Shown: positions 6,841 to 25,549 of the stretch, piece by piece
Layout of the letters: each line of letters opens with the position of its first letter
How positions within the stretch are numbered: position 1 is the first letter of the stretch
Program-made: the position numbers and the translations under genes
The notes under the pieces: model-generated
What the model was told of the DNA's origin: nothing
Database searches by the model: none
Seen by the model: the letters and a program-made list of their open reading frames with translations, nothing else
From: Anaerolineae bacterium
GTDB lineage: Bacteria; Chloroflexota; Anaerolineae; Aggregatilineales; Aggregatilineaceae
DNA length: 64,000 bases
Direction: 5' to 3'
NCBI GenBank assembly: GCA_018432315.1
Contig: JAHDLB010000004.1
Coordinates: 124,001-188,000, forward strand

Positions 6841-8721
6841 CTAACTCAGCAGCCGGTCCCAGCGGCCCGAGCCGGGCACGCGCTCGTCGCCTTTGCGCCG
6901 CGTGATGCCGAGCGCGTCCAGCCGTTCGAGGAAGTCCAGCGCATAGCGGCGCGTCGTCTGGAAATGATCGCGCAGCACGGCCACCGTCAGCGGCTCGCCC
7001 GCCTCCAGCCGCTCGCGCGCAAAGTCGATCCACTCGCGCAGCACGTCCGGCAGCAGCACTACGTCGTCGCTGATGCGCACCAGCTCGCCCTGCTCGATCA
7101 GGCTGGTCAGCACCGCGTCGCCCACCCGCTCGCGGACCTGTCCCGCCGTGGGCGGCGTGTGGCGCGCGCGCTCGAAGTCGCGCCGCAAGGCCCGCAGCGC
7201 GTCTTCCTGGGCGGCGGTGAAGCGGATCGCGTGATCGGGCAGGCGCAGGACGCCGCCATCCTCGATCACGACCCGTCCCGCCCCGGCCAGCGCGGCCAGG
7301 CTGGCCTCGAACGCGTCCGGCTCCAGGCGCAGCCGCCCGCGCAGCGCGTCCCGCGGGAGGCCCACGCGCAGCGGCTCCGCGGCGTGGAACTCGGCCAGGA
7401 CGCGGGTCGCCCTGGCGACCAGCCGCTCCCAGCTTTGCGCGTGAATCACCCAGCCGGAGTCACCGAGCGCCAGCAGGTCGCCGCTGGCCAACGCCTTTTC
7501 GCGTCCCTCCGGCGGCAGATCGAGCGCCCCGGCGCGGACCGGCCCGCGCGCGCCCGCCAGCGCCAGCAGCGCCGCCGTCACCGGGTCGCCGTCCAACAGC
7601 GTTTCGAGCCGCCGGACCACGTCCGGCCTGAAGCGTTTCCAGCGGCGGCCCGGCGCCGTGTCGAGGATGACGCCGCCGCCGATCGTCTCCGGCGGCGAGG
7701 CGCGGCGCACGATGTAGCGGTCGCCGTGGGCGGCCACGATCGGGCGCTCCAGCCGGAGCTGGATCCAGCTCTCCTCGCCGGGCAGCACCAGCTCGCGGTC
7801 CAGCACGCGGACGCGGCCCATCACCTCCGCCGCCCCGGCGAACACTTTGACCTCGTCGTTGTGCGCCAGCGGCTGGTGCGCGCCGGGCAGGTAGCGCAGC
7901 CAGGCGTCGGCCAGCGTGGTCGGGTGCCACGCGCCCGGCAGGCCCAGCACGTCGCCGCGCGCGATGTCGGCTTTCTCCACGCCGCGCAGGTTGACCGCCA
8001 CGCGCCGCCCCGGCCCGGCCTGCGCGAGGCTCTCCTCGTGCGATTGCAGGCCGCGGATGCGCGCGCGCACGCCGGCGGGCTGGATCTCGACCTCCTGCCC
8101 GACTTCGAGCGAGCCGCCGAGCAGCGTCCCGGTCACGACCACGCCGAAGCCGCTGATGGTGAATACCCGGTCGATGGGCAGGCGCGGCTGGCCCGCGTCG
8201 GGGCGGGCGGGCTGGTCGGCCAGCATGGCGACGAGCGCCGCGACCAGGTCGTCCAGCCCTTCGCCGGTGCGCGCCGACACCGAGACGATCGGCTTGCCGT
8301 CGAGCACGGTGCCCTGGACCGTCTCCATGACGTCGAGCTGCACCAGTTCCAGCCACGCCGGGTCGTCGACCAGGTCGATCTTGGTCAGCGCGATCAGGCC
8401 GGTGGGGATCGCCAGCAGGTCGAGGATGGCGAGATGCTCGCGCGTCTGGGGCATCACGCCCTCGTCGGCGGCGATGACCAGCACTGCCGCGTCGATGCCG
8501 CCCACCCCGGCCAGCATGTTCTCGATGAAGTCGCGGTGGCCCGGCACGTCCACGATGCCGACGCGCTCGCCGGTGGGCAGGTCCAGCCACGCGAAACCGA
8601 TGTCGATCGTCATCTCACGGAGTTGTTCCTCGGCGAGCCGGTCCGGGTTGATGCCGGTCAGCGCCTGGGTCAGGGTGGATTTGCCGTGATCGACGTGCCC
8701 GGCGGTGCCAATGACGTGCAT
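6841..8721 (-). CDS. selB: Selenocysteine-specific translation elongation factor SelB
   Basis: SelB (626 residues) brings Sec-tRNA to the ribosome at UGA codons that carry a SECIS hairpin. The GTPase domain is clear: G1 GHVDHGKS at residues 8-15, G3 DVPGH at 58-62 and G4 TKID at 113-116. After EF-Tu-like domains II and III, the C-terminal third is rich in winged-helix segments that bind SECIS RNA, ending with the ITRRKGDERVPGS-type last wing. The ATG at 8721 is 2 bases past the selA stop, so selA and selB form an operon. A probable selenoprotein lies 5.6 kb away. selC and selD are not in the window. Confidence 0.95.
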   Translation of the reverse strand: MHVIGTAGHVDHGKSTLTQALTGINPDRLAEEQLREMTIDIGFAWLDLPTGERVGIVDVPGHRDFIENMLAGVGGIDAAVLVIAADEGVMPQTREHLAILDLLAIPTGLIALTKIDLVDDPAWLELVQLDVMETVQGTVLDGKPIVSVSARTGEGLDDLVAALVAMLADQPARPDAGQPRLPIDRVFTISGFGVVVTGTLLGGSLEVGQEVEIQPAGVRARIRGLQSHEESLAQAGPGRRVAVNLRGVEKADIARGDVLGLPGAWHPTTLADAWLRYLPGAHQPLAHNDEVKVFAGAAEVMGRVRVLDRELVLPGEESWIQLRLERPIVAAHGDRYIVRRASPPETIGGGVILDTAPGRRWKRFRPDVVRRLETLLDGDPVTAALLALAGARGPVRAGALDLPPEGREKALASGDLLALGDSGWVIHAQSWERLVARATRVLAEFHAAEPLRVGLPRDALRGRLRLEPDAFEASLAALAGAGRVVIEDGGVLRLPDHAIRFTAAQEDALRALRRDFERARHTPPTAGQVRERVGDAVLTSLIEQGELVRISDDVVLLPDVLREWIDFARERLEAGEPLTVAVLRDHFQTTRRYALDFLERLDALGITRRKGDERVPGSGRWDRLLS

Positions 8722-8723
8722 AC

Positions 8724-10058
8724 TCACAACTCTTTCAGTGCAGCCAGCAGGTCGGCGTCCTGTTCCGGCAGGACGGTGCGCGGATCGAGCAGCAGGCGAT
8801 CCTGCGCCACGCGCGCGATGACCGGCGGGTCGTGCGCCCGCAGGCGCGCCGCGGCGGCGTTGGGCGCGTCCACGCGCGGCGACAGCGCCCAGGTGGGCAG
8901 CGTCTCGCCCGGCAGACTGCCGCCGCCCACCGTCGACTCGGACGGGATCACATCGCCGCCCACCACGGCGGCCCAGCGTTCGGCCCGCGCGCGGATCGCC
9001 TCCGGCGCAGCGCCGATCATGCGCCAGACCGGGACCCGCTCGAGGGCTTCGCCGCGCCGGTAGTGCTCCAGCGTGGCCGACAGCCCGGCCAGGCACAGCT
9101 TGTCGGCCCGAATGGCCCGCGCCAGCGGGTGGCGTTTCAGCCGGTCGATCAGGTCCGCCCGCCCGACGATGATCCCCGCCTGGGGCCCGCCGAGCAGCTT
9201 GTCGCCGCTGAACATCACGAGGTCGGCCCCGGCGGCAAGACTGTCCTGCACGCGCGGCTCCGGGGCCAGCCCGAACGGCGTCGTGTCGATCAGGGTGCCG
9301 CTGCCGATGTCGTCCAGCAGCCACAGCCCGCGCTCGTGGGCCAGGGCGGCCAGCTCCGCCAGCGGGACGGATTCGGTGAAGCCGATCACCTTGAAGTTGG
9401 AGGCGTGGGCGCGCACGATGGCCGCGGAGTCGGCGGTGATGGCGGCGGCGTAGTCGCCCAGGTGGGTGCGGTTGGTCGTTCCGATCTCGACCATGCGCGC
9501 GCCGGACTGCTGCATCACGTCCGGCACGCGGAACGCCCCGCCGATCTCGACCAACTGCCCCCGGCTGATGATCGCCTCGCGCCCGGCAGCCAGCGCCGTC
9601 AGCGCCAGCAGCACGCCGGACGCGTTATTGTTGACGACCATGCCCGCCTCGGCGCCGGTCACGTCGCGCAGAATGCGCTCGATGTGGCGGTCGCGCTTGC
9701 CACGCTGGCCCGGCTCCAGGTCGTATTCCAGCGTGCTGTAGCCGCCGCCCACCGCGCGGATTGCGTCGAGGGCCTCCGCCGACAGCGGGGCGCGGCCCAG
9801 GTTGGTGTGCACGATCACGCCTGTCGCGTTGATCACCGGGCGCAGCGTCGGCTGGGCGTCGCGGGCCAGCATCGCCGCCGCCCGCCCGACGAGGCTGGCC
9901 GCATCGGGAATCGGGCTGCCGGAGAGCGCCGCCTGCCGCGCCGTCTCGACCGCTTCGCGCAGGGCGCGCACCGTCTGCGCGTGGCCGTACTGCGCCTGGA
10001 GTCCGGCGCTGGCCCGCAGCAGGGCGTCGATGCTCGGTAAATCGCTGAGTGAGGTCAT
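8724..10058 (-). CDS. selA: L-seryl-tRNA(Sec) selenium transferase SelA
   Basis: A 444-residue PLP enzyme that converts seryl-tRNA(Sec) to selenocysteyl-tRNA(Sec) using selenophosphate. The PLP lysine is K287 in SGDKLLGGPQAG, with the family motif INATGVIVHTNLGRAPLS near residues 76-93. Length matches bacterial SelA. It is translated immediately before selB (2-base gap). A strong terminator (10082-10117) separates it from the upstream cytochrome operon, so the sel genes probably have their own promoter in the short gap. Confidence 0.95.
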   Translation of the reverse strand: MTSLSDLPSIDALLRASAGLQAQYGHAQTVRALREAVETARQAALSGSPIPDAASLVGRAAAMLARDAQPTLRPVINATGVIVHTNLGRAPLSAEALDAIRAVGGGYSTLEYDLEPGQRGKRDRHIERILRDVTGAEAGMVVNNNASGVLLALTALAAGREAIISRGQLVEIGGAFRVPDVMQQSGARMVEIGTTNRTHLGDYAAAITADSAAIVRAHASNFKVIGFTESVPLAELAALAHERGLWLLDDIGSGTLIDTTPFGLAPEPRVQDSLAAGADLVMFSGDKLLGGPQAGIIVGRADLIDRLKRHPLARAIRADKLCLAGLSATLEHYRRGEALERVPVWRMIGAAPEAIRARAERWAAVVGGDVIPSESTVGGGSLPGETLPTWALSPRVDAPNAAAARLRAHDPPVIARVAQDRLLLDPRTVLPEQDADLLAALKEL

Positions 10059-10163: not shown

Positions 10164-11402
10164 TCAGTGATGGCCCTTCTCGTGACTCTTCGGGAACAGG
10201 GGCAGGAACCGCAGCCCCAGCGTGAGCATGAGCAGCGCATAGCCCAACACGCCGATCGCCACGCCCCACTCGGACATGGCGGGGACGTATTCGCGCACCG
10301 GGAACAACTCCGCCGCGCCGGGCGACCAGTCCATCGGCACCACCAGCCCGGACAGGGTTACGTTCCAGCGGTTGACGACGACCCCCACGATCGCCAGCAG
10401 GCCCGCCACTACCACCCAGCTATCCTGGCGGCGCAGGCGCGGCGTCAGCATGATGATCGCGGGGACCAGCGCGCCGACCACGATTTCGATCCACCAGAAG
10501 GTGAGCCCGTAGGGCGTCGCCGTTTCGAGCAGGTTGTTGGCCTGCACGCGCTCCGGCACGTGGCTGTAATAGGCCGTCGCCAGGAAGTCCCACAGCTTGA
10601 GGTACAGGTAGCCCATCATCAGCAGCCCGCCGAACATGGCGACGGCGTTGCGCAGCCGCGTTTCGATCTGGCGCTGGCGGATCATGTTCTCATAGAAGAC
10701 CGTGAGCGCCAGCGTGACGATGGAACCCGCCGCCACGGCGGACAGGATGAACATCACCGGCAGCGACGGCTTGAACCACACCGGGCGCGCCACCAGCACG
10801 CCGTAGGTCGCGCCGAGCGAAGACTGGTGCAGCAGCGACAGGCCAAGGCCGACGATCGACACCGCCGGCGTGAACTGGTGCAGGAAGTGGCCCAACCGGG
10901 GCCCGCGCGCGAACCGCTGGGCGACGAAATCGCTCTCCAGCACGGCGGGCGCCAGCTCGAAGACCAGCACCATCGAGTAGAGAATCACGCACATGGTGAT
11001 TTCCCACAGCACCGAGTGAATGTTCCAGTAGATGACCGGGTGCCAGAAACGGTCGGGCCGCCCGATGTCCATCAACAGCGCGAGCATGGCCGACGTGTAA
11101 CCGACGAACCCGACGAACACCGCGATGCGCGCGATGCGCTCGAACGACTTGACCCGGAAGATGTACGCCACCGTCGAGAGCGAGAACGCCCCCGCGCCGA
11201 GCGCGATCGCCGACAGGTCGACCGTGATCCACAAGCCCCACGGCACGCGGTCGGTCAGGTTGGTGACTTCCAGCCCGTACCACAGCACGCGAATGCCGGA
11301 GATCAGGCCGACGATCACCATGATCCCCAGGACGAGCAGCCAGAAGCTGAACAGGGGTGCGGTTTGAACCTGACGCCGGACGGTTCCGATCATCGCTGTC
11401 AT
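10164..11402 (-). CDS. NrfD/PsrC-family membrane subunit (polysulfide reductase type)
   Basis: A 412-residue integral membrane protein with about ten hydrophobic helices, in the NrfD/PsrC family that exchanges electrons between the quinone pool and a periplasmic ferredoxin subunit. Signature stretches are VPWGLWITVDLSAIALGAGA and a His/Glu-containing FWWIEIVVGALVPAI. Its ATG overlaps the stop of the FeS gene by 4 bases, implying translational coupling. With the octaheme cytochrome it should form a three-subunit quinone-cytochrome oxidoreductase without a molybdopterin subunit. The direction of electron flow is not set by sequence. Confidence 0.9.
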   Translation of the reverse strand: MTAMIGTVRRQVQTAPLFSFWLLVLGIMVIVGLISGIRVLWYGLEVTNLTDRVPWGLWITVDLSAIALGAGAFSLSTVAYIFRVKSFERIARIAVFVGFVGYTSAMLALLMDIGRPDRFWHPVIYWNIHSVLWEITMCVILYSMVLVFELAPAVLESDFVAQRFARGPRLGHFLHQFTPAVSIVGLGLSLLHQSSLGATYGVLVARPVWFKPSLPVMFILSAVAAGSIVTLALTVFYENMIRQRQIETRLRNAVAMFGGLLMMGYLYLKLWDFLATAYYSHVPERVQANNLLETATPYGLTFWWIEIVVGALVPAIIMLTPRLRRQDSWVVVAGLLAIVGVVVNRWNVTLSGLVVPMDWSPGAAELFPVREYVPAMSEWGVAIGVLGYALLMLTLGLRFLPLFPKSHEKGHH

Positions 11403-12229
11403 ATCGCCATCCCCTCCGGAGGTACATAATAAACGTTTGGCTCGGTGCCCAGGTCTTCGCGCAGCCGGAACGTCGGCAGCTCTTTGAGCAGCCTGGAGAT
11501 CTTGCTGTCGGGATCGTTCAGGTCGCCGAAGACGCGCGCCTCGACCGGGCAGATGTTCACGCAGGCCGGGGTCGCCGCGCGATCCTCACCGGGGACGAGG
11601 CCCTGGGCCAGCCCGCGATCAATGCGGTGAATGCAGAACGTGCATTTCTCGGCCACGCCGCGAGGCCGGCGGTCGACCTCGGCGTTGCCCCATTCGGGCT
11701 GGTAGCCGCTGGGGCCTTCGCGCTCCTGCCAGTTGAAGCTGCGCGCGTCGTAGGGGCACGCCACCTGGCAGTAGCGGCAGCCGATGCACAACTGGTAATC
11801 CATCACCACCAGGCCATCATCCCGCTGCCAGGTCGCCCGCGTGGGGCACACCGACACGCACGGCGCATCATTGCAGTGCAGGCAGGGCCGGGTCATGTGG
11901 AACGGGATGCCGGTGTCGGTCACCTCGGGGTGATAGACGTTCCAGCGCATGTCGTCCGGCACGTCGTTCACCGCCTGGCAGGCATACACGCAGTACTGGC
12001 AGCCGATGCATTTGCGCAGGTCGATCAACATCGCCCAGTGGTGCGTGCCGTCCACCGTGTGGCCTTTAGCCTCGCGGACGACGTCGGGCAGCTCCAGGGC
12101 CAGCTCGCGCTCGATCAAGTCCCGGAGACTGTCGACCTCGCTGAGCGCAGCCGCCACGGCGATGCTGCCGCCCACCGCCGCCATGGCGGCGATGAATTCG
12201 CGACGCGTTAGGTATTTTTCCTCAGCCAT
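11399..12229 (-). CDS. Tat-exported four-cluster ferredoxin subunit (PsrB/NrfC/HybA-like)
   Basis: A 276-residue iron-sulfur protein with a twin-arginine signal (TRREFIAAMAAVGGSIAVAA). Sixteen-cysteine ferredoxin pattern: CIGCQYCVYAC, CLHCNDAPCVSVCP, CIGCRYCQVACP, then CTFCIHR paired with CVNICP, enough for four cubane clusters. It acts on the outer face of the membrane, relaying electrons between NrfD and the multihaem cytochrome. It starts 4 bases after the cytochrome stop and overlaps NrfD by 4 bases. Confidence 0.92.
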   Translation of the reverse strand: MAEEKYLTRREFIAAMAAVGGSIAVAAALSEVDSLRDLIERELALELPDVVREAKGHTVDGTHHWAMLIDLRKCIGCQYCVYACQAVNDVPDDMRWNVYHPEVTDTGIPFHMTRPCLHCNDAPCVSVCPTRATWQRDDGLVVMDYQLCIGCRYCQVACPYDARSFNWQEREGPSGYQPEWGNAEVDRRPRGVAEKCTFCIHRIDRGLAQGLVPGEDRAATPACVNICPVEARVFGDLNDPDSKISRLLKELPTFRLREDLGTEPNVYYVPPEGMAI

Positions 12230-12233
12230 AGGA

Positions 12234-13214
12234 CTACTCTTTGTGTTCTTTGACGATTCGGGTGGTCCGTGCGCGGAAGCGGTTCACGCCGAAGACGACC
12301 AGGCCGCCCACCGCCAATCCGATGATCAGCCCCTGGGCCAGCCTCAGCGACGACGTGTTGCCGCCCTGCGCCTTGACCGTATCGACCTCGGCCTCCAGCT
12401 CGCGGATGCGCACCTGCGCCTCCAGCAGCGGGTGCTGGCTCTCGGTCAGGCCCAGTTCCTGTTGGGCCTCGCCCTGGGTTTCCATGATGCCGCTCTCGCT
12501 GATGTCCTCGTGACAGGTCACGCAGGCAGTCGTCTCGACAGCGCCGGTGTGGCCGGTGGGGAACAGGTTCCCGCTGACGTAATGCTCCTGCAAGTCTTCC
12601 AGGGAGGGGCGGAACCAGTGGCAGTCCACACACTGCTGGTTGGCGTGCACCAGATGCGCGTAATCGTTGCGCGCGTCCTCGTTATGGCAGTTCAGGCAGA
12701 GCGTGTTCGCGTCCTCGAACCGGAGCGTTTGCGGATGCGGCTGGTGGCAGGTGGAGCAGGCCAGTTGCAGCTCGCCGTGGCGGCTCTCTTCCCATTCGTG
12801 GAAGGTCGTCGTGTGGCAGCTCGCACACACCTCGACGCCCGGCTCCAGGTCCATCGGCGCGGGCGGGTGATCGTCGGGCGTTGCGCCATGACACGCTTCG
12901 CAGGTCACGCCCTCGTGTTTGTATTCACCGGTGCGCGCCTCGTACCCGGTGGTGTGGCAGGCCAGGCACTGCGGATTCTGGTCCTGGGCTTCCCACGCTT
13001 CCTGGAAGATCGGATCGCTGTACGCCTGGGCGTGTACGCCGCTCTCCCAATCGCCCACTACGTTCACGTGGCAGGTCGCGCACTGGTCCGGCGATTGCTG
13101 GGGTGGGTTGCCCTGAGCAGGATCGCCCGCTTCGGCCAGGATGGCGCCCATCACACCGAAAGCGAGCACGATGGCGAATCGTACGAAATGTCGAGAAAAG
13201 GACGAGTACGGCAT
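12234..13214 (-). CDS. Membrane-anchored octaheme cytochrome c
   Basis: A 326-residue exported cytochrome with an N-terminal signal sequence (to about residue 29). Eight CxxCH haem motifs occur in residues 45-230: CATCH, CLACH, CEACH, CASCH, CSTCH, CLNCH, CVDCH, CVTCH. After them come a short coiled coil (LLEAQVRIRELEAEVDTVKA) and a C-terminal transmembrane helix with a basic tail, so it is fixed on the outside of the membrane. It is encoded between the LysR gene (12-base gap) and the ferredoxin. Likely the periplasmic electron-accepting or -donating subunit of the NrfD complex. Confidence 0.92.
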   Translation of the reverse strand: MPYSSFSRHFVRFAIVLAFGVMGAILAEAGDPAQGNPPQQSPDQCATCHVNVVGDWESGVHAQAYSDPIFQEAWEAQDQNPQCLACHTTGYEARTGEYKHEGVTCEACHGATPDDHPPAPMDLEPGVEVCASCHTTTFHEWEESRHGELQLACSTCHQPHPQTLRFEDANTLCLNCHNEDARNDYAHLVHANQQCVDCHWFRPSLEDLQEHYVSGNLFPTGHTGAVETTACVTCHEDISESGIMETQGEAQQELGLTESQHPLLEAQVRIRELEAEVDTVKAQGGNTSSLRLAQGLIIGLAVGGLVVFGVNRFRARTTRIVKEHKE

Positions 13215-13226
13215 ACGCTGAATCCT

Positions 13227-14147
13227 TTATGTAAAAAACTGACGCAAGTCCTGGTTTTCGGGCGCAAAGACAAAATCCCAAAACGCGGTCTGCGCCTCAG
13301 TTGCGCGAAAACCCGTGTGCCGGGCGATATACAGCCGCTGGATCAGGCGCATCCCCTCGATGGGGACCTCGACCGCGCTGCCGTGATCGAGGGCCGGCCC
13401 AGCCGCGATCCGCGACACAAACGCCGCGCCAATACCGCACATCACGGCCTGGACGACTGCCTCGGTGTTCCACAGCGTGAGGCGCGACTTCAGCATGTCC
13501 AGGCTCATGTCGTGCGCCACCAGCGCCCGGTTGAGCGTGAACACCGTGCCGGAGCCGGGCTCGCGCAGCACCAGCGGATGCTCGACCAGGTCCGCCGGCC
13601 TCAGGCTGCTCGCCCCGGCCCAGGGATGCCCGGCGGGAACGATCAGCACGACCAGGTCGTCCGAAAAATACTGGTACTCGATCGCGCGGCGCGGCACCCG
13701 CAGGTTGCTGACGGCGACGTCGATTTCACCGGCCATCAGCCGGTCGAGGAACGCGCCACGCGGCCCGACTTCGCAGTGAATCCGCACGTCGGGATAGGCT
13801 TCCAGAAAGCGCGCCATAATCCCCGGCAGGATGTACTTGCCCGCCGACGTGCTGCACCCGATCATCAACCGGCCAATCACGGTGCCCTGGCGCAGCGCGA
13901 CAAATTCCTCGACGCGCTGGGCTTCCTTCAACAGGTTGCGCACAATCGGGACCAGCGCCTCACCGACCTCATTCAGTTTTATACTACGCCCGACACGGTC
14001 GAACAACTGCGTGCCAAGGTGGTTCTCCAACGCCTGAATATGGCCGCTGACAGCCGGCTGGGAGATTTGCAGGAGGCGGCCCGCTTCGGAAAAGTTCTCG
14101 GTTTCCGCCGCCACCAAAAACACCTGCAGCTCGTGCAGCTCCAGCAT
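13227..14147 (-). CDS. LysR-family transcriptional regulator (CysB/CysL-like)
   Basis: A 306-residue LysR-type regulator: N-terminal winged helix-turn-helix (LHELQVFLVAAETENFSEAG...QPAVSGHIQALENHLG, residues 4-45) and a two-lobed effector-binding domain. It is the first gene of the cytochrome-FeS-NrfD operon and is transcribed away from the selenocytochrome, the classical LysR layout in which the regulator controls the divergent gene from a shared intergenic operator (see 14192-14239). The inducer is unknown; the resemblance to CysB/CbbR/CysL types allows a sulfur or redox signal. Confidence 0.9.
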   Translation of the reverse strand: MLELHELQVFLVAAETENFSEAGRLLQISQPAVSGHIQALENHLGTQLFDRVGRSIKLNEVGEALVPIVRNLLKEAQRVEEFVALRQGTVIGRLMIGCSTSAGKYILPGIMARFLEAYPDVRIHCEVGPRGAFLDRLMAGEIDVAVSNLRVPRRAIEYQYFSDDLVVLIVPAGHPWAGASSLRPADLVEHPLVLREPGSGTVFTLNRALVAHDMSLDMLKSRLTLWNTEAVVQAVMCGIGAAFVSRIAAGPALDHGSAVEVPIEGMRLIQRLYIARHTGFRATEAQTAFWDFVFAPENQDLRQFFT

Positions 14148-14329: not shown

Positions 14330-16030
14330 ATGAAACAACATCATGGCCTCTGGCTTTTCGTCGTTATAGGAGCGTGGTTGCTGGTCGGCGCAGCGCTGGC
14401 AAGCTGTGCCCCAGACACCTCGGCCCCTGAGCTGAATACCGAAGCTCGCCTCGAAAACCTGGTCACTCCAACCGACCCCGTCGAGGTCGCCCAGGCTGAC
14501 ACGGACAGCCAGGCAGCCGACGTCCCGGCGGCGGTCACCGACATTTATTGCCTGGATTGCCACACCAACCAGACGATCATGCAGGGTCTGGCCGTCGAAG
14601 AAGAGGTCGAAACCCTGTCCGAAGGTCCTGGTTGAGGTGGCTCGGTGCCTCCGGTGGAGGCCTGGGTGAAGGTCTGGATTGACGAGGAAGCATACGCCCC
14701 GGACGTGCATTCGTCACTTGCCTGCACGGCCTGTCATGGCGGCCAGCCGGTGCGCAGCATGTCTGCTCACGATGGCCTGATCGCCGACCCGTCCGCCGAT
14801 CCCGAAACGGGATGCGGCACCTGCCATCCGAACATCGCGCCCTATGCCGCCGACAGCCTGCATAGCACGCTGCGCGGCTACGACACGGCGCTTTATGAAC
14901 GCAGCATCCCCGAAAACCACGACACGCTCGAATTCATGGAGACGTACCACTGTAACGAGTGTCACGCCACGTGCGGCGACTGCCACATCGCCCAGCCGGA
15001 CTCGGTGGGCGGCGGCCTGCTCGATGGGCACGCCTTTGTCCGCCAGCCGCCCATGAGCCAGACCTGCACGGCCTGCCACGGCAGCCGGGTCAAGAACGAG
15101 TACTACGGGCTGAACGAGGGCATTCCGGGCGACGTGCACCTGCGGCAGGCGCGGCTGGCCTGCACCGACTGCCACACCGGCGACCAGATGCACGGCATGG
15201 GCGACGCGGCAGACGCGAATCACCGGTACGATGGCGTGCGCGAGCCGCAGTGTGAAGACTGTCACGCCGATCAGATTGGCGTGGGATCGGGCATCTTGCA
15301 GCACGAGATCCACGGCACCGAGATCCTGTCGTGCCAGTCCTGCCACAGCGTGGCCTACACCAACTGCACCAACTGCCACGTCGACCGGACGGAAGAAGAC
15401 GTGCCCTTCTACAAGATCGAAGAGCATTCGCTCGGGTTCTACCTGGGGCGCAACCCGCTGCGCAGCGCCGAGCGGCCCTACCGGTACGTCCCGGTGCGGC
15501 ACGTCCCGATCGATCCGGAGTCGTTCAGCGCCTATGGCGAGGACCTGCTGCCGAACTTCCTGAACCGGCCCACCTGGACGTATGCCACGCCGCATAACAT
15601 CCAGCGCAACACGCCGCAGACGGAAAGCTGCACGGCTTGCCACGGCAACGAAGACATCTTCCTGACCGCCGACAAGGTGGTCGAGTCCGAGCGCGCCGGG
15701 GCCAACCTGAACGTGATCGTGGACGTGGTCCCGCCCATGCCGGCCAACGTCGGCCAGTTCTTCACCGGCAGCGCGGCGCCGGCAGAGGCCCCGACCGAGG
15801 AGGCCGGGGAAGCGCCTGAGCCCGGCACCGATGACAGCTTCTGGGGCGCGGATGAGGACGAGCCTGCCGCGGACGAAACGCCGAGCGACGACAGCTTCTG
15901 GGGCGCCGATGAGGGCGAGCCTGCCGCCGAAGAGACGCCAAGCGACGACAGCTTCTGGGGCGAGGGCGATAGCGAGCCCGCTGCCACAGAAGAGTCAGAG
16001 AGTGATGACAGCTTCTGGGGGGCGCAGTAG
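14330..16030 (+). CDS. Selenocysteine-containing 11-haem lipoprotein cytochrome c (UGA read as Sec)
   Basis: One 566-residue protein interrupted only by an in-frame TGA at 14633-14635 (residue 102). The ATG at 14330 has GGAG upstream and begins a lipoprotein signal (hydrophobic core, then ALASC lipobox). One haem motif (CLDCH) precedes the TGA and ten follow: CTACH, CGTCH, CNECH, CGDCH, CTACH, CTDCH, CEDCH, CQSCH, CTNCH, CTACH. The Sec context is SEGPG-U-GGSVPPVEAW. A SECIS-like hairpin follows the TGA, and selA/selB are in the same neighbourhood. The downstream part has no ribosome site, signal peptide or good start of its own (only GTG at 14645), which argues against two genes. The C-terminus carries four DDSFWG repeats. 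Probably an outward-facing, lipid-anchored electron carrier whose Sec performs chemistry or metal ligation. Alternatives are a nonsense mutation or a sequencing error. Confidence 0.82.
14633..14635 (+). other. In-frame UGA, proposed selenocysteine codon
   Basis: This TGA is the only stop between the lipobox start at 14330 and the TAG at 16028-16030. The frame before and after is identical, and both sides carry CxxCH haem motifs. Confidence 0.8.
14641..14666 (+). promoter_or_regulatory. Candidate bacterial SECIS element
   Basis: Hairpin directly after the UGA. Upper stem GCCTCC (14647-14652) pairs with GGAGGC (14656-14661) around a GGU loop. The lower stem (14641-14645 with 14662-14666) continues with one bulged U at 14646. 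The loop lies 18 bases after the UGA, within the spacing known for bacterial SECIS hairpins, and the GU-containing loop plus bulged U match the features SelB needs in the E. coli fdhF element. Confidence 0.72.
15830..16027 (+). repeat. Tandem coding repeat, DDSFWG tail
   Basis: Three units of 57-60 bases plus a partial fourth encode DDSFWG followed by an acidic E/D-E-P-A-A linker of 13-14 residues. The protein ends in DDSFWGAQ. It forms an unstructured, acidic C-terminal tail on the selenocytochrome with regularly spaced Phe-Trp pairs. Confidence 0.9.
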
Positions 16031-16098: not shown

Positions 16099-17766
16099 AT
16101 GCGCAAACTTTCATACCTTCTCCTTGTTCTGGCGTTGGCGCTGCCGCTGGCCCTGCCCTTCGCTCCGGCGCTGGCACAAGAATCGGCCACCGTGGTGGCG
16201 GCCCTCGAAACCTACAACGAAAATTTGCCCGCCGGCTACGGCAACATCTCGGTCGCCGACCTGTCGGTGGAGATGATCGACAAGCCGGACCTGGTGCTGG
16301 TCGATGTGCGCCAGCCGGAAGAGTACGCCGAGGCCCACATTCCGGGCGCGTTCAACATCCCGCTCCGCGAGCTGGCGCAGACTCTCGACAAGCTGCCCGA
16401 CCTCGACGCCGAGATCGTCGTCTACTGCGGATCGGCCTTCCGCTCGTCGATTGCCATGACCTCGCTCCAGGTGCTGGGCTACACCAACGTCCGCAACATG
16501 GCGGGCGGTTTTGCCGCGTGGCAGGGTGAGGAATTCGCCACGACCACCGACGTCACCGAGGCGGAAGCCGGCGACGCGCCCGAGGTCGATCCGGAAGTGC
16601 TTGCCGCCGTGGACGCGCAGCTCGCCGGCCTGCCGCAAGGCTGGGGCTCGGTCAAGGCCGAGGACCTCAACGTCGAGCTGATCGAGAACCCGCCCGCGCT
16701 GCTGATCGACGTGCGCACCCCCACCGAGTGGGAAGAGAAGGGCTACATCGCCGGTGCCGTCAACCAGCCGCTGGAGCAGTTCATGAGCTTCGCCGGTGAG
16801 TGGCCCGAAGACAAAGACGCCAACATCGTGATCTACTGCGCGGCTGGTCACCGGGGCAACATGGCCGCGACCCTGATGCGCACCCTGGGCTACACCAACG
16901 TCCGCAACCTGGCGGGCGGCTTCGGCGCCTGGTCGACCGCGGGCCTGCCCTTCGAGGGCGGCGAGCCTGCCCCGGCGGAGGCGGCGGTTGAAGAATTCGA
17001 CCCGGTCGCGCTGTGGTCGGATTACCTGGCCGGGATGCCCGCCAGCTTCAACGCCGTTCGCGTGGGCGACGCGGCGGAGCAGGTCGCATCCAACCCGGAG
17101 CTGGTGATCGTGGACGTGCGCACGGTGGATGAATACACCGAAGGCCACATCGCGGGCGCGCTCAACATCCCGCTCACCGAGGTGACCGATCACCTGGACA
17201 TGCTGCCCAACCTGGACGACCCGATCCTGGTCGTGTGCGGTAGCGGCCACCGCTCGGCGATGGCGATGGTAGCGCTCAACCTGTTGGGCTACGACGGCGC
17301 GACCAGCATGCTGTCGGGCATGAGCGCCTGGACGGGCGCGGGGTACGACGTCACCACCGAGCCAGCCGAGGCCGAGGCCGGCGCCGCGCCGGAGGTCGAT
17401 CCTGCCGTGTTCGAGATGGTGGACGCCTACATGAAGGCGATCCCGGCGGGCTTCTACACGATCAAGGCCGACGATCTGAACCTGGCGCTGATCGAGAACC
17501 CGCCCGCGCTGATCGACGTGCGCACCAACTCCGAGGTCGAGCAGGGCATCATCGGCGGCGCGACTCACATCGAACTGCGCGAATTCATGAACCGCATGGG
17601 CGACTGGCCGGAGGACAAGACTCAGCCGGTCGTGGTCTACGCGCTCGGCCACCGCTCGGTGATCGCGATGATGGCGATGCAGATGCTGGGCTATGAGGAT
17701 GTGCGCTCGCTGGCGGGCGGCGTCAACGCCTGGACCGGCGCGGACTACCCGCTCGTTACCGAGTAG
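16099..17766 (+). CDS. Secreted protein with four rhodanese domains
   Basis: A 555-residue exported protein (signal peptide cut near ALAQ, residue 27) with four tandem rhodanese-like domains, roughly residues 37-147, 172-285, 302-417 and 438-553. Rhodaneses carry sulfane sulfur on a loop cysteine. Domains 1-3 keep it (C110 in CGSAFRS, C247 in CAAGHRG, C380 in CGSGHRS). Domain 4 has Ala515 and a shorter loop (ALGHRS), so it should be inactive. GGAGG precedes the ATG. It follows the selenocytochrome by 68 bases in the same direction and is ended by a strong terminator. Likely a periplasmic or surface sulfur carrier partnering the cytochrome. Confidence 0.92.
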   Translation: MRKLSYLLLVLALALPLALPFAPALAQESATVVAALETYNENLPAGYGNISVADLSVEMIDKPDLVLVDVRQPEEYAEAHIPGAFNIPLRELAQTLDKLPDLDAEIVVYCGSAFRSSIAMTSLQVLGYTNVRNMAGGFAAWQGEEFATTTDVTEAEAGDAPEVDPEVLAAVDAQLAGLPQGWGSVKAEDLNVELIENPPALLIDVRTPTEWEEKGYIAGAVNQPLEQFMSFAGEWPEDKDANIVIYCAAGHRGNMAATLMRTLGYTNVRNLAGGFGAWSTAGLPFEGGEPAPAEAAVEEFDPVALWSDYLAGMPASFNAVRVGDAAEQVASNPELVIVDVRTVDEYTEGHIAGALNIPLTEVTDHLDMLPNLDDPILVVCGSGHRSAMAMVALNLLGYDGATSMLSGMSAWTGAGYDVTTEPAEAEAGAAPEVDPAVFEMVDAYMKAIPAGFYTIKADDLNLALIENPPALIDVRTNSEVEQGIIGGATHIELREFMNRMGDWPEDKTQPVVVYALGHRSVIAMMAMQMLGYEDVRSLAGGVNAWTGADYPLVTE

Positions 17767-21458: not shown

Positions 21459-22526
21459 ATGAGTCTATACATCTTGTCTAAGGAGAAGCTCCCTGCGTTC
21501 GTCGAGGCGCTGCAAGCCGGTTTCCGGGTGGTGGGCCCTGTCCGCACCCCAACCGGCTTCGCGTTCGAGGAGATCACGCAGGCCGATCAACTCCAGCTAG
21601 ACTACACCACGACGATTCTGCCCCCGAAAAAATACTTCTTGCCCCAACGTGAAACGCTGTTCAAGTATCACACCGGCAGCAACCCCGAAGGCGCGCAATC
21701 GGTCGACGTCGAGCCTGTGTTCCAGGACGTTCAGCCCACCGTGATCTTCGGCATGCACACGTGCGACATGAGCGGCATCATGCTCTACGACAAGGTCTTC
21801 TCCGAAGGCTTTCGCGACGAGCACTACATGACGCGCCGGGACAAGATGGTGATCATCGGGATCGAATGCCTGCATCCTTGCGACGACGCCTCGTTTTGCA
21901 AGGATATGGGCACCCTCACCGCGCCGCCGATTTACGACCTGCACATGACCGAAGTCGACGACGACTACCTGATCGACACGGGCAGCGAGAAAGGCGAGCG
22001 CCTGCTGCTGAACTATTCGGAAGCAAAGATGGCGACGACCGACCACATGCAGCGGTTGGGCCGCGTGCTGTCGGCCAAGTGGCCGCGCTTCCGCATGCGC
22101 CTGAAGATGAGCAAGGACCAGACGCCGTCCCTGCTGACCCTGGGCTACAACGCGCACATCTGGGAAGAACTGGGCGAGCGCTGCCTGGCCTGTGGATCGT
22201 GCACCAACGTCTGCCCGACGTGCTTTTGCTTCGACGTGCAAGACGAGCTGGACATCAACATGCAGGACGGCGAGCGCGTCCGGGTGTGGGACTCGTGCCA
22301 GCTTCACGAGTTCGCGCTGGTGGCAGGCGGCCACAACTTCCGCGAGAGCAAGGCGTCGCGCGTGCGGCACCGCCTGATGCGCAAGGGCAAGTATATCAAG
22401 CAGGTGCACGGCCTGAGCGGCTGCACCGGCTGTGGGCGCTGCGAGCGGGCCTGCCTGGTGGACATCACGATCCCCGGCACGCTCAACGCCCTGCACGACG
22501 AGATGAAAGTCGAATCGGGTGTATAG
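21459..22526 (+). CDS. hydB: Group 3b [NiFe] hydrogenase, beta (FeS) subunit
   Basis: A 355-residue iron-sulfur subunit of the sulfhydrogenase/NAD(P)-linked hydrogenase type (HydB/HyhB). C-terminal cysteine sets CLACGSCTNVCP (about residue 243) and CTGCGRCERACLVD (about 330) bind two [4Fe-4S] clusters and relay electrons between the gamma (flavin) and delta subunits. It opens a four-gene hydrogenase operon in the order beta-gamma-delta-alpha, the usual order for group 3b. The 238-base upstream gap should hold the promoter and contains a GAGGG-TAT-CCCTC palindrome near 21351. Confidence 0.9.
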   Translation: MSLYILSKEKLPAFVEALQAGFRVVGPVRTPTGFAFEEITQADQLQLDYTTTILPPKKYFLPQRETLFKYHTGSNPEGAQSVDVEPVFQDVQPTVIFGMHTCDMSGIMLYDKVFSEGFRDEHYMTRRDKMVIIGIECLHPCDDASFCKDMGTLTAPPIYDLHMTEVDDDYLIDTGSEKGERLLLNYSEAKMATTDHMQRLGRVLSAKWPRFRMRLKMSKDQTPSLLTLGYNAHIWEELGERCLACGSCTNVCPTCFCFDVQDELDINMQDGERVRVWDSCQLHEFALVAGGHNFRESKASRVRHRLMRKGKYIKQVHGLSGCTGCGRCERACLVDITIPGTLNALHDEMKVESGV

Positions 22527-22540
22527 AGACGAGGTGGCCG

Positions 22541-23410
22541 ATGATTCCTAACCTGACAACTACGACAACGCCTCGGGCATATAATGGGCACACCTCGATC
22601 TATCTCCCTACCATTGCCACCATCGAAGATGTCCATAACGAGACCGAGCTGGAGAAAATCTATACCGTCCGGCTGCCCGGCGGCCAGAACCTGGGCCACA
22701 CCCCCGGCCAGTTCGTGATGGTGTCCCTGCCCGGCGTGGGCGAGGCGCCGATCAGCGTGATGTCGTCGCCCAGCCGCACCGGGCAGACCTTCCGGCTGTG
22801 CATTCGCAACGCCGGCGACCTGACCAACGTCATCCACCAGTTGAAACCCGGCGACAAGGTCGGCATTCGCGGCCCGTTCGGGCGCGGCTTCCCGGTGGAC
22901 CTGTACAAAGGCAAAGACGTGCTGATCGCCGCCGGCGGCCTGGGGCTGGCGCCCGCCCGCTCGTTGATCGACGAGATCCTCGACAACCGGGCCAACTTCG
23001 GGCGCCTGATCATCCTGTACGGCGCGCGCTCGCCCGCCGAGATCCTGTTCCGCGATGCGCTGGCCGAATGGAACGAGCGTGACGACGTCGAATCGCTGCT
23101 CACGGTCGACCGGCCCGACGAGGCGTGGCTGGGGCACGTGGGCGTGATCACGCGGCTGTTCGAGCACATTCAGGTCAACCCCTACCACACCGTCGCCATC
23201 ACGGTTGGCCCGCCCGTTATGTACCGTTTCGTCGTGATGGAGCTGCTTGGCAAGGGCCTGACGCCCGAGCAGATCTGGATGAGCTTCGAGCGCCGCATGA
23301 AGTGCGGCGTGGGCAAATGCGGCCACTGCCAGGTGAACCATCGCTATAGCTGCCAGGATGGTCCGGCCTGGACCTATGCTGAAGCCCTTGCCTTCGAGGA
23401 GGCGCTCTAA
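22541..23410 (+). CDS. hydG: Group 3b [NiFe] hydrogenase, gamma (FAD/NAD(P)-binding) subunit
   Basis: A 289-residue flavoprotein of the ferredoxin-NADP reductase/dihydroorotate dehydrogenase electron-transfer family. FAD-binding region SVMSSPSRTG; pyridine nucleotide fold starts at LIAAGGLGLAPARSLID. A C-terminal CGVGKCGHC...C pattern binds a [2Fe-2S] cluster. It exchanges hydride with NAD(P)H. GAGGTG precedes the ATG 14 bases past hydB. Its TAA overlaps the next ATG by one base. Confidence 0.9.
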   Translation: MIPNLTTTTTPRAYNGHTSIYLPTIATIEDVHNETELEKIYTVRLPGGQNLGHTPGQFVMVSLPGVGEAPISVMSSPSRTGQTFRLCIRNAGDLTNVIHQLKPGDKVGIRGPFGRGFPVDLYKGKDVLIAAGGLGLAPARSLIDEILDNRANFGRLIILYGARSPAEILFRDALAEWNERDDVESLLTVDRPDEAWLGHVGVITRLFEHIQVNPYHTVAITVGPPVMYRFVVMELLGKGLTPEQIWMSFERRMKCGVGKCGHCQVNHRYSCQDGPAWTYAEALAFEEAL

Positions 23411-24243
23411 TGTCTGCAAAACCCAAAATCGCCTTCTTCGACTTCACCAGTTGTGAAGGCTGCCAGTTAACCGTGATCGATGCGCTGCAAACCCACCTCG
23501 GCCTGCTGGACCTCGTCGAAATCGTGCAGTTCCGCGAGGCGATGAGCGAAAAGGGCCAGAACTACCAGATCGCCTTCGTCGAAGGCTCGTGCACGCGCAA
23601 GAGCGACGAGGCCCGCCTGCTGGCGATCCGCGAGCAGGCCAGCGCCGTCGTGGCGCTGGGCGCCTGCGCGCACCTGGGCGGCGTGAACAGCATGAAAAAT
23701 CGCTGGCCGATCGAAAACGTCCAGACGTATGTCTACGGCCAGAACGGCAAAGACGCGTACGAAAGCTACCCGGCCCGGCCCATCTCGGCGGTGATCAAAG
23801 TCGACGCCGTGATCCCCGGCTGCCCGATCGACCGCCACGAGTTCCTGCGTGTCGTGCAGATGATGCTCCAGGGCCGCACGCCCCGCCTGCCGGACTATCC
23901 GCTGTGCGTGGAGTGCAAGCTGCGGGAAAACGCCTGCCTCAACACGCTGGGCATTCTCTGCCTGGGGCCGATCACGCGCGCGGGCTGCGAGGCCATCTGC
24001 CCCAGCTATGGCGACGGTTGCGAAGGCTGCCGCGGCTGGCATCCCGAGGCCAACTTCGACTACATGCGGGAGATCCTCCGCGGGCACGGCCTGAGCGATC
24101 ACGAGATCGATGCCCGGTTCACCATGTTCAACCACTACCAGATGGAGCAGATGAGCGGGCACGCTCCGCTGAGCGAGGCCGTCGCCCCGGTTACCGACAC
24201 CAGCCTCCCGACATCCAGCTTCGCGGCGCCGAAGGAGGACTAG
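23410..24243 (+). CDS. hydD: Group 3b [NiFe] hydrogenase, delta (small) subunit
   Basis: A 277-residue hydrogenase small subunit. Proximal cluster ligands start with C15-E-G-C18 (SCEGCQLTVIDAL), followed by GSCTRK, ACAHLGG and PGCP. More cysteines (CVECKLRENAC, CPSYGDGCEGC) may hold further clusters. No Tat signal, so the enzyme is cytoplasmic, as expected for group 3. Overlaps the gamma gene by 1 base and sits 4 bases before the large subunit. Confidence 0.92.
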   Translation: MSAKPKIAFFDFTSCEGCQLTVIDALQTHLGLLDLVEIVQFREAMSEKGQNYQIAFVEGSCTRKSDEARLLAIREQASAVVALGACAHLGGVNSMKNRWPIENVQTYVYGQNGKDAYESYPARPISAVIKVDAVIPGCPIDRHEFLRVVQMMLQGRTPRLPDYPLCVECKLRENACLNTLGILCLGPITRAGCEAICPSYGDGCEGCRGWHPEANFDYMREILRGHGLSDHEIDARFTMFNHYQMEQMSGHAPLSEAVAPVTDTSLPTSSFAAPKED

Positions 24244-24247
24244 CACC

Positions 24248-25549
<1,302 letters not shown>

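Follow-up and report, generated by a model that had tools for sequence, protein, structure and literature searches.

The locus described here raises the question of whether a TGA codon in the genome of an Anaerolineae bacterium ends a small haem protein, or is read as selenocysteine (Sec) within a much larger multihaem cytochrome. The stretch of DNA that was analyzed, 64,000 nucleotides in full and called the window below, contains the following elements at the site in question.

14330 to 16030, forward strand: predicted Sec-containing 11-haem lipoprotein cytochrome c, one gene with UGA read-through (translation with TGA as U; homologues sharing frame and TGA; 11 invariant CxxCH motifs in 64 members)
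14633 to 14635, forward strand: UGA predicted to be read as Sec, residue 102, motif GPG-U-GG (TGA in the aligned column of the full-length members found, L024 excepted)
14647 to 14661, forward strand: putative bacterial SECIS upper stem and loop, GCCUCC-GGU-GGAGGC, 17 nt past the UGA (fold, covariation and bSECIS rules)
14641 to 14666, forward strand: lower stem extension, 14641-14645 paired with 14662-14666, with a bulged U at 14646 (predicted fold)

Translated with TGA read as U, a single frame runs from the ATG at 14330 to the TAG at 16028-16030 and yields 566 residues. The TGA at 14633-14635 is the only one in frame and corresponds to residue 102, which confirmed the original prediction that nothing else breaks this frame. 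As had also been proposed, one CxxCH motif lies upstream and ten lie downstream of the TGA, 11 being counted in the same frame. A signal peptide is present at the N-terminus and contains the lipobox-like sequence LASC (Cys26), in agreement with the predicted lipobox start, and many relatives show xGC or xSC at this place. The product therefore combines CxxCH motifs with an export signal, as c-type multihaem cytochromes do, and only generic cytochrome c7/c3 matches were returned by Pfam. The predicted concealment of the cytochrome by a two-gene split was borne out, since ORF callers indeed cut the gene at the TGA. In the acidic C-terminal tail DDSFWG is repeated four times, and this tail possibly serves for docking. 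Repeated [DE]xxFWG units were observed in the disordered tail at 15830-16027 of the window and in L010-L023, and in related families they are replaced by DPLDAPP repeats.

Conservation of the TGA was determined in homologues. About 66 genomes have homologues that keep a UGA at the same position, and they belong to Chloroflexota, the phylum of a Desulfuromonadales metagenome-assembled genome (MAG; L040) and one small phylum, so that distant homologues share the in-frame codon. The site reads GxG-U-[GA]G and lies between the first and second haems, and the residues on both sides of the UGA are conserved in the family. When 61 relatives were searched with stops read through, 27 carried the cytochrome and the TGA was found at the motif in 26 of them; the exception (L024 of genome G005) lacks the whole Sec motif. 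Of 400 genomes of the phylum that were searched with a profile, 13 had the cytochrome, 12 of them with exactly one TGA in the protein, and in the phylum of the Desulfuromonadales MAG the cytochrome was present in 29 of 247 genomes, with one TGA at the motif in 27. The UGA cytochrome was also found in a Dehalococcoidia MAG (L039) and in L041, a MAG from another small phylum. Because only the top few candidates per genome were scored, at strict E-values, these frequencies are minimum estimates, and the number of distant Sec-less paralogues is too low. GxGUGG is the commonest form of the motif, while GxGUAG occurs in L055 and in L080-L090, a divergent subfamily that has lost H391 and has a different SECIS hairpin. 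A Cys homologue at the Sec position, which is a usual but not strictly defining mark of a selenoprotein, was not seen among the top candidates per genome at strict E-values. In the Sec-less relatives (L024, L040, L057 and L062) the motif is absent altogether, and apart from L024 these matches are distant paralogues. Thus, of the original expectation that residue 102 would be Cys or UGA in homologues, the UGA half was upheld and the Cys half was not.

Two trivial explanations of the TGA can be weighed at this point. Draft assemblies can contain errors, and the codon might then mark a pseudogene or a sequencing or assembly error. However, no error is indicated here, and the same TGA recurs in about 66 independent genomes, which represent three or more phyla and in which the gene is otherwise intact; this conservation already refutes the explanation, whose probability is negligible. 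TGA is also the ordinary stop of neighboring genes, for example selA and a ClC channel gene, so no general alternative code is in use in this genome.

The region just past the UGA was then analyzed as RNA. The six-pair stem closes on a GGU loop (14653-14655), with a predicted folding energy of -19.4 kcal/mol, and the lower stem extension is kept in close relatives only. According to published rules, a bSECIS element has a loop of 3-9 nt with G within the first two positions, a stem of 4-16 bp, a distance of 16-37 nt from the UGA and an MFE of at most -7.5 (PMC13188914), and the hairpin at 14647-14661 agrees with all of them. On plain MFE folds, 55 of 64 members passed these rules, compared with 33% of dinucleotide shuffles. 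Covariation was evaluated in the GUGG subfamily, using 48 distinct sequences. Double changes were found in all six pairs and 97.6% of cells were paired; double-change cells numbered 38, compared with 12.9 +/- 2.4 in shuffles, 0 of 500 shuffles matched this covariation, and with slid-partner controls the signal disappeared (at most 11 double-change cells). A swap of C16-G28 to G16-C28 is accompanied by a change of VPPxEA to VAPxEP, which indicates that the pair was kept at the cost of two amino-acid changes (Pro-Pro-x-Glu-Ala to Ala-Pro-x-Glu-Pro). The GUAG subfamily has a slightly different hairpin, with a GGUC- or AGUU-type loop in several members. The original prediction proposed to look for a SECIS element, and a SECIS-like hairpin is thus present, rule-conforming and covarying.

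These data also bear on a restart of translation, in which a first protein would stop at the UGA and a second would begin at the GTG at 14645. The split made by ORF callers would accord with this, as would a Shine-Dalgarno-like GAGGTGG at 14634-14640, 4 nt ahead of the GTG. The claim that the downstream part has no ribosome site was therefore too strong, while the claim that it has no signal peptide was correct. It was observed that the Shine-Dalgarno-like stretch in the region 14634-14645 arises from the conserved Gly-Gly codons after the UGA. Against two proteins, the restarted product would have ten haem motifs that could not be loaded, since without a signal peptide it is out of reach of periplasmic c-type maturation. 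Moreover, the stop would be TGA across the family (L024 excepted) with conserved residues on both of its sides, and the covariation of the SECIS hairpin would have no role. Two separate proteins are accordingly very improbable.

The capacity to insert Sec was assessed in the same genome. Two of the genes concerned lie in the window, 4-8 kb from the cytochrome gene and on the opposite strand.

8724 to 10058, reverse strand: selA (TIGR00474, 545 bits)
6841 to 8721, reverse strand: selB, start approximate (TIGR00475, 333.8 bits)

Both had been named in the original prediction, and its further checks on selC and selD also gave positive results. A tRNA-Sec gene (selC) with anticodon UCA is located on the same contig 7 kb beyond the end of the window, where the RF01852 match (C35:195251) was identified as tRNA-Sec(UCA) by ARAGORN; RF01852 matches in other contigs score lower. 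The genome also contains selD, which itself has a TGA, and a formate dehydrogenase with TGA (Sec-FDH), so that selA, selB, selC and selD are all present. Among the relatives, selA was present in 24 of the 26 genomes that have the UGA cytochrome, compared with 20 of the 35 that do not (p 0.003), and the two UGA-cytochrome genomes without a detected selA (G044 and G053) are draft MAGs. Close linkage of selA/selB to the cytochrome gene was seen in several genomes: selA is no more than a few kb away in four of them (G002, G035, G049 and G011) and in two loci of the other phylum (L138 and L139). The conserved UGA, the covarying SECIS-like hairpin and the sel genes together support the candidate selenoprotein, and as judged from sequence residue 102 of the cytochrome is almost certainly Sec.

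The protein was compared with known Sec-containing and multihaem proteins. ExtKL of Geobacter (NF040886) is a known Sec-containing pentahaem cytochrome (PMC5877670, PMC6148476). The window protein resembles it in being a multihaem c-type cytochrome with one UGA-encoded Sec and a rhodanese gene nearby (ExtH in the ext cluster). Differently, ExtKL has five haems and carries Sec in GHxIPDG-U-PTPNR after all of them, whereas the window protein has 11 haems and carries GxGU[GA]G between the first and the second. The frame was recovered in 11 of 12 ExtKL-family loci, and in all 11 Sec is in the PDGU motif past the haems. Some NF040886 matches above cut-off have no in-frame TGA (G488:C12, G664:C132) and represent Sec-less ExtKL variants. 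Membership of the window cytochrome in ExtKL was rejected, as it had no NF040886 match at E 1 and both haem count and Sec motif differ. The setting, a Sec-cytochrome plus a rhodanese, is nevertheless comparable. The original prediction named no well characterized Sec-containing multihaem cytochrome of this design; it passed over ExtKL, which was already described, although ExtKL is a different family.

ExtN and ExtO (NF040967, NF040968) align with the ten-haem part (residues 125-449, E 1e-11) at 42-44 bits against a cut-off of 200, and the match starts after Sec 102. Membership in ExtN was rejected at 42.6 bits. Since the ten-haem part aligns, a distantly shared haem scaffold with ExtN and ExtO is likely on sequence grounds. 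Other haem-motif proteins with reported Sec are the octahaem tetrathionate-reductase family (TIGR04315) and the GSU2204-family CXXCH selenoproteins (PMC13188914). The NCBIfam scan gave no TIGR04315 or NF041027 match for the window cytochrome, and no NCBIfam model scored above its cut-off. In SoxA/TsdA-type cytochromes, the catalytic haem is ligated by Cys. By description these offer a parallel, a chalcogen side chain at a haem reacting with sulfur compounds, but they are set apart by Cys in place of Sec and by far fewer haems. The family is missing from the 2026 list of 119 prokaryotic selenoprotein families, and the open-licence literature on Sec cytochromes of this design gave only ExtKL, GSU2204-type and TIGR04315-type entries. 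The cytochrome very probably represents a previously unlisted selenoprotein family distinct from ExtKL, although it may have been described earlier outside the open-licence literature.

The best clue to the function of the cytochrome is its partner, which was absent from the original prediction.

16099 to 17766, forward strand: secreted four-domain rhodanese protein, presumed to be the functional partner (PF00581 in four stretches, E 2.9e-78, above the gathering score)

Its fourth rhodanese domain has no active-site Cys (VVYALGHRS). A rhodanese was adjacent to or fused with the cytochrome in 41 of 42 Sec-cytochrome loci and in 0 of 4 Sec-less loci, the available flanks of the latter extending over a few kb. 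In the 41 loci it lies on the same strand, mostly 0-200 bp downstream, with three upstream and one fused (L118); one of those counted (L131) is less clear owing to an over-extended ORF start, its next clear rhodanese being 1 kb downstream. The single exception (L116) stops at a contig edge. In L118 (8085-10163, reverse strand) the cytochrome and two rhodanese domains share one reading frame, and a second fusion was found in L079, on a contig without the Sec region; the two fusions come from two phyla. For the Sec-less homologue of G005 (L024/L149), no rhodanese was found in the 7.5 kb available downstream.

Upstream of the cytochrome gene, a divergent cluster was detected.

13227 to 14147, reverse strand: LysR regulator, closest to the model 'selenium metabolism-associated LysR' but under its cut-off (NF040786, 197.8 bits, cut-off 250; 17 loci)
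12234 to 13214, reverse strand: eight-haem cytochrome with a membrane segment at its C-terminus, belonging to the divergent cluster conserved in Chloroflexota (10 loci)
11399 to 12229, reverse strand: DsrO/QrcC-like iron-sulfur protein (NF045797 DsrO, 207.9 bits, above cut-off 200; 13 loci)
10164 to 11402, reverse strand: NrfD/QrcD-like quinone-interacting membrane protein (NF041784 QrcD, 274.8 bits, below cut-off 570; 9 loci)

The cluster of all four genes was found in many Chloroflexota, and its membrane part (NrfD, iron-sulfur and octahaem proteins) is confined to a part of this phylum. In three other loci (L138, L139 and L140) the Sec-cytochrome lies near two or three rhodaneses and a further cytochrome, 620 aa long, which has nine haem motifs (cluster C5, weak DmsE match); in L138 and L139, selA is found upstream. 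Downstream in the window, at 21459-25549, lies a sulfhydrogenase-like cluster with ShyB-like, ShyD-like and ShyA-like subunits, whose large subunit has Cys and not Sec close to the C-terminus (DPCISC).

Read from these gene neighbors, the cytochrome would probably act in extracytoplasmic electron transfer, in which its selenolate would react with sulfane sulfur or selenium that the rhodanese handles; both the substrate and the direction of electron flow are inferred from the neighborhood. SelB and the SECIS hairpin just past the UGA would insert Sec, and the full-length protein would be exported before the haems are attached. The lipoprotein would carry 11 c-type haems and be anchored on the outer side of the cytoplasmic membrane, with Sec on a glycine-rich loop (GxGU[GA]G) that lies between the first and the second haem. 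The rhodanese Cys would carry sulfane sulfur (or selenium) as a persulfide or perselenide, and the selenolate would attack this group and accept it or hand it over through a transient Se-S or Se-Se bond, while the haem wire delivers (or removes) electrons. In Chloroflexota, electrons may be exchanged with the quinone pool via the divergent NrfD/QrcD-like, DsrO/QrcC-like and octahaem proteins. The module would then be a respiratory or detoxifying reductase of sulfane sulfur or polysulfide (or of selenite or selenium).

The same core protein might instead reduce chalcogen oxyanions (selenite or tellurite) as a counterpart of the Geobacter ext cluster. This cluster unites ExtKL and the rhodanese-like lipoprotein ExtH with the porin ExtI, which is required for selenite/tellurite reduction (PMC5877670). 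The best NCBIfam matches of the haem region to ExtO and ExtN (44 and 42.6 bits) and the nearest model of the LysR regulator point the same way, but all of them fall below their cut-offs (200 bits; 250 for LysR). Furthermore, no conserved porin or ExtKL/M homologue was found beside the cytochrome gene, and the Chloroflexota cluster with its DsrO and NrfD types has a respiratory appearance. Oxyanion reduction is thus possible but unlikely, and equally so its details, that Sec helps to handle selenium itself and that the rhodanese carries perselenide.

Multihaem lipoproteins frequently serve extracellular electron transfer, and the protein could also be a simple electron wire, such as one leading to extracellular acceptors, in which Sec is non-catalytic (redox-protective or metal-binding). 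Consistent with this, Sec sits in a glycine loop without the neighboring Cys, Thr or Ser of classical redox motifs. On the other side, the UGA, which is costly to translate, persists across three or more phyla and disappears only when its motif does, it was never replaced by Cys among the matches seen, and the coupling to the rhodanese is strict. A non-catalytic Sec is therefore rather improbable, and the selenolate reacting with rhodanese-held sulfur or selenium remains preferred.

How such a Sec might meet a haem was considered from the haem ligands. Among 64 members, nine His outside the haem motifs are invariant and H391 is present in 51, compared with 11 invariant haem motifs, so at least one haem has no conserved distal His. 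L024 has lost haem 10 (residues 346-350) as well as the Sec motif, a parallel loss that would fit Sec facing haem 10. Together these features make a Sec-haem site conceivable, and a haem-selenolate site, in which Sec faces or ligates a haem without a conserved distal His while carrying rhodanese-derived sulfane sulfur or selenium, is a tentative and rather doubtful proposal. The AlphaFold2 model of the cytochrome, made from a five-row alignment only, had a pLDDT of 32.5 and a pTM of 0.18, and the comparison of profile A1 with sequences of solved structures gave weak and short matches only (best E 6e-6, 28pb_A). If true, the haem-selenolate site would be the Sec analogue of Cys-ligated haem enzymes of sulfur metabolism, and the cytochrome would form a new enzyme class in several phyla.

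Some selenoprotein discovery pipelines demand Cys homologues (PMC1088965), and pipelines of this kind would miss the cytochrome family for this reason. Ordinary gene callers divide each copy into a small product with one haem and a ten-haem product that has no leader, and the carrier bacteria are here represented largely by draft genomes. The apparently unlisted selenoprotein family with its broad spread suggests a little-noticed selenium-dependent electron-transfer system. Its near-constant pairing with a rhodanese links selenium, haem electron wires and sulfur/selenium chemistry outside the cytoplasm, and this link is testable.
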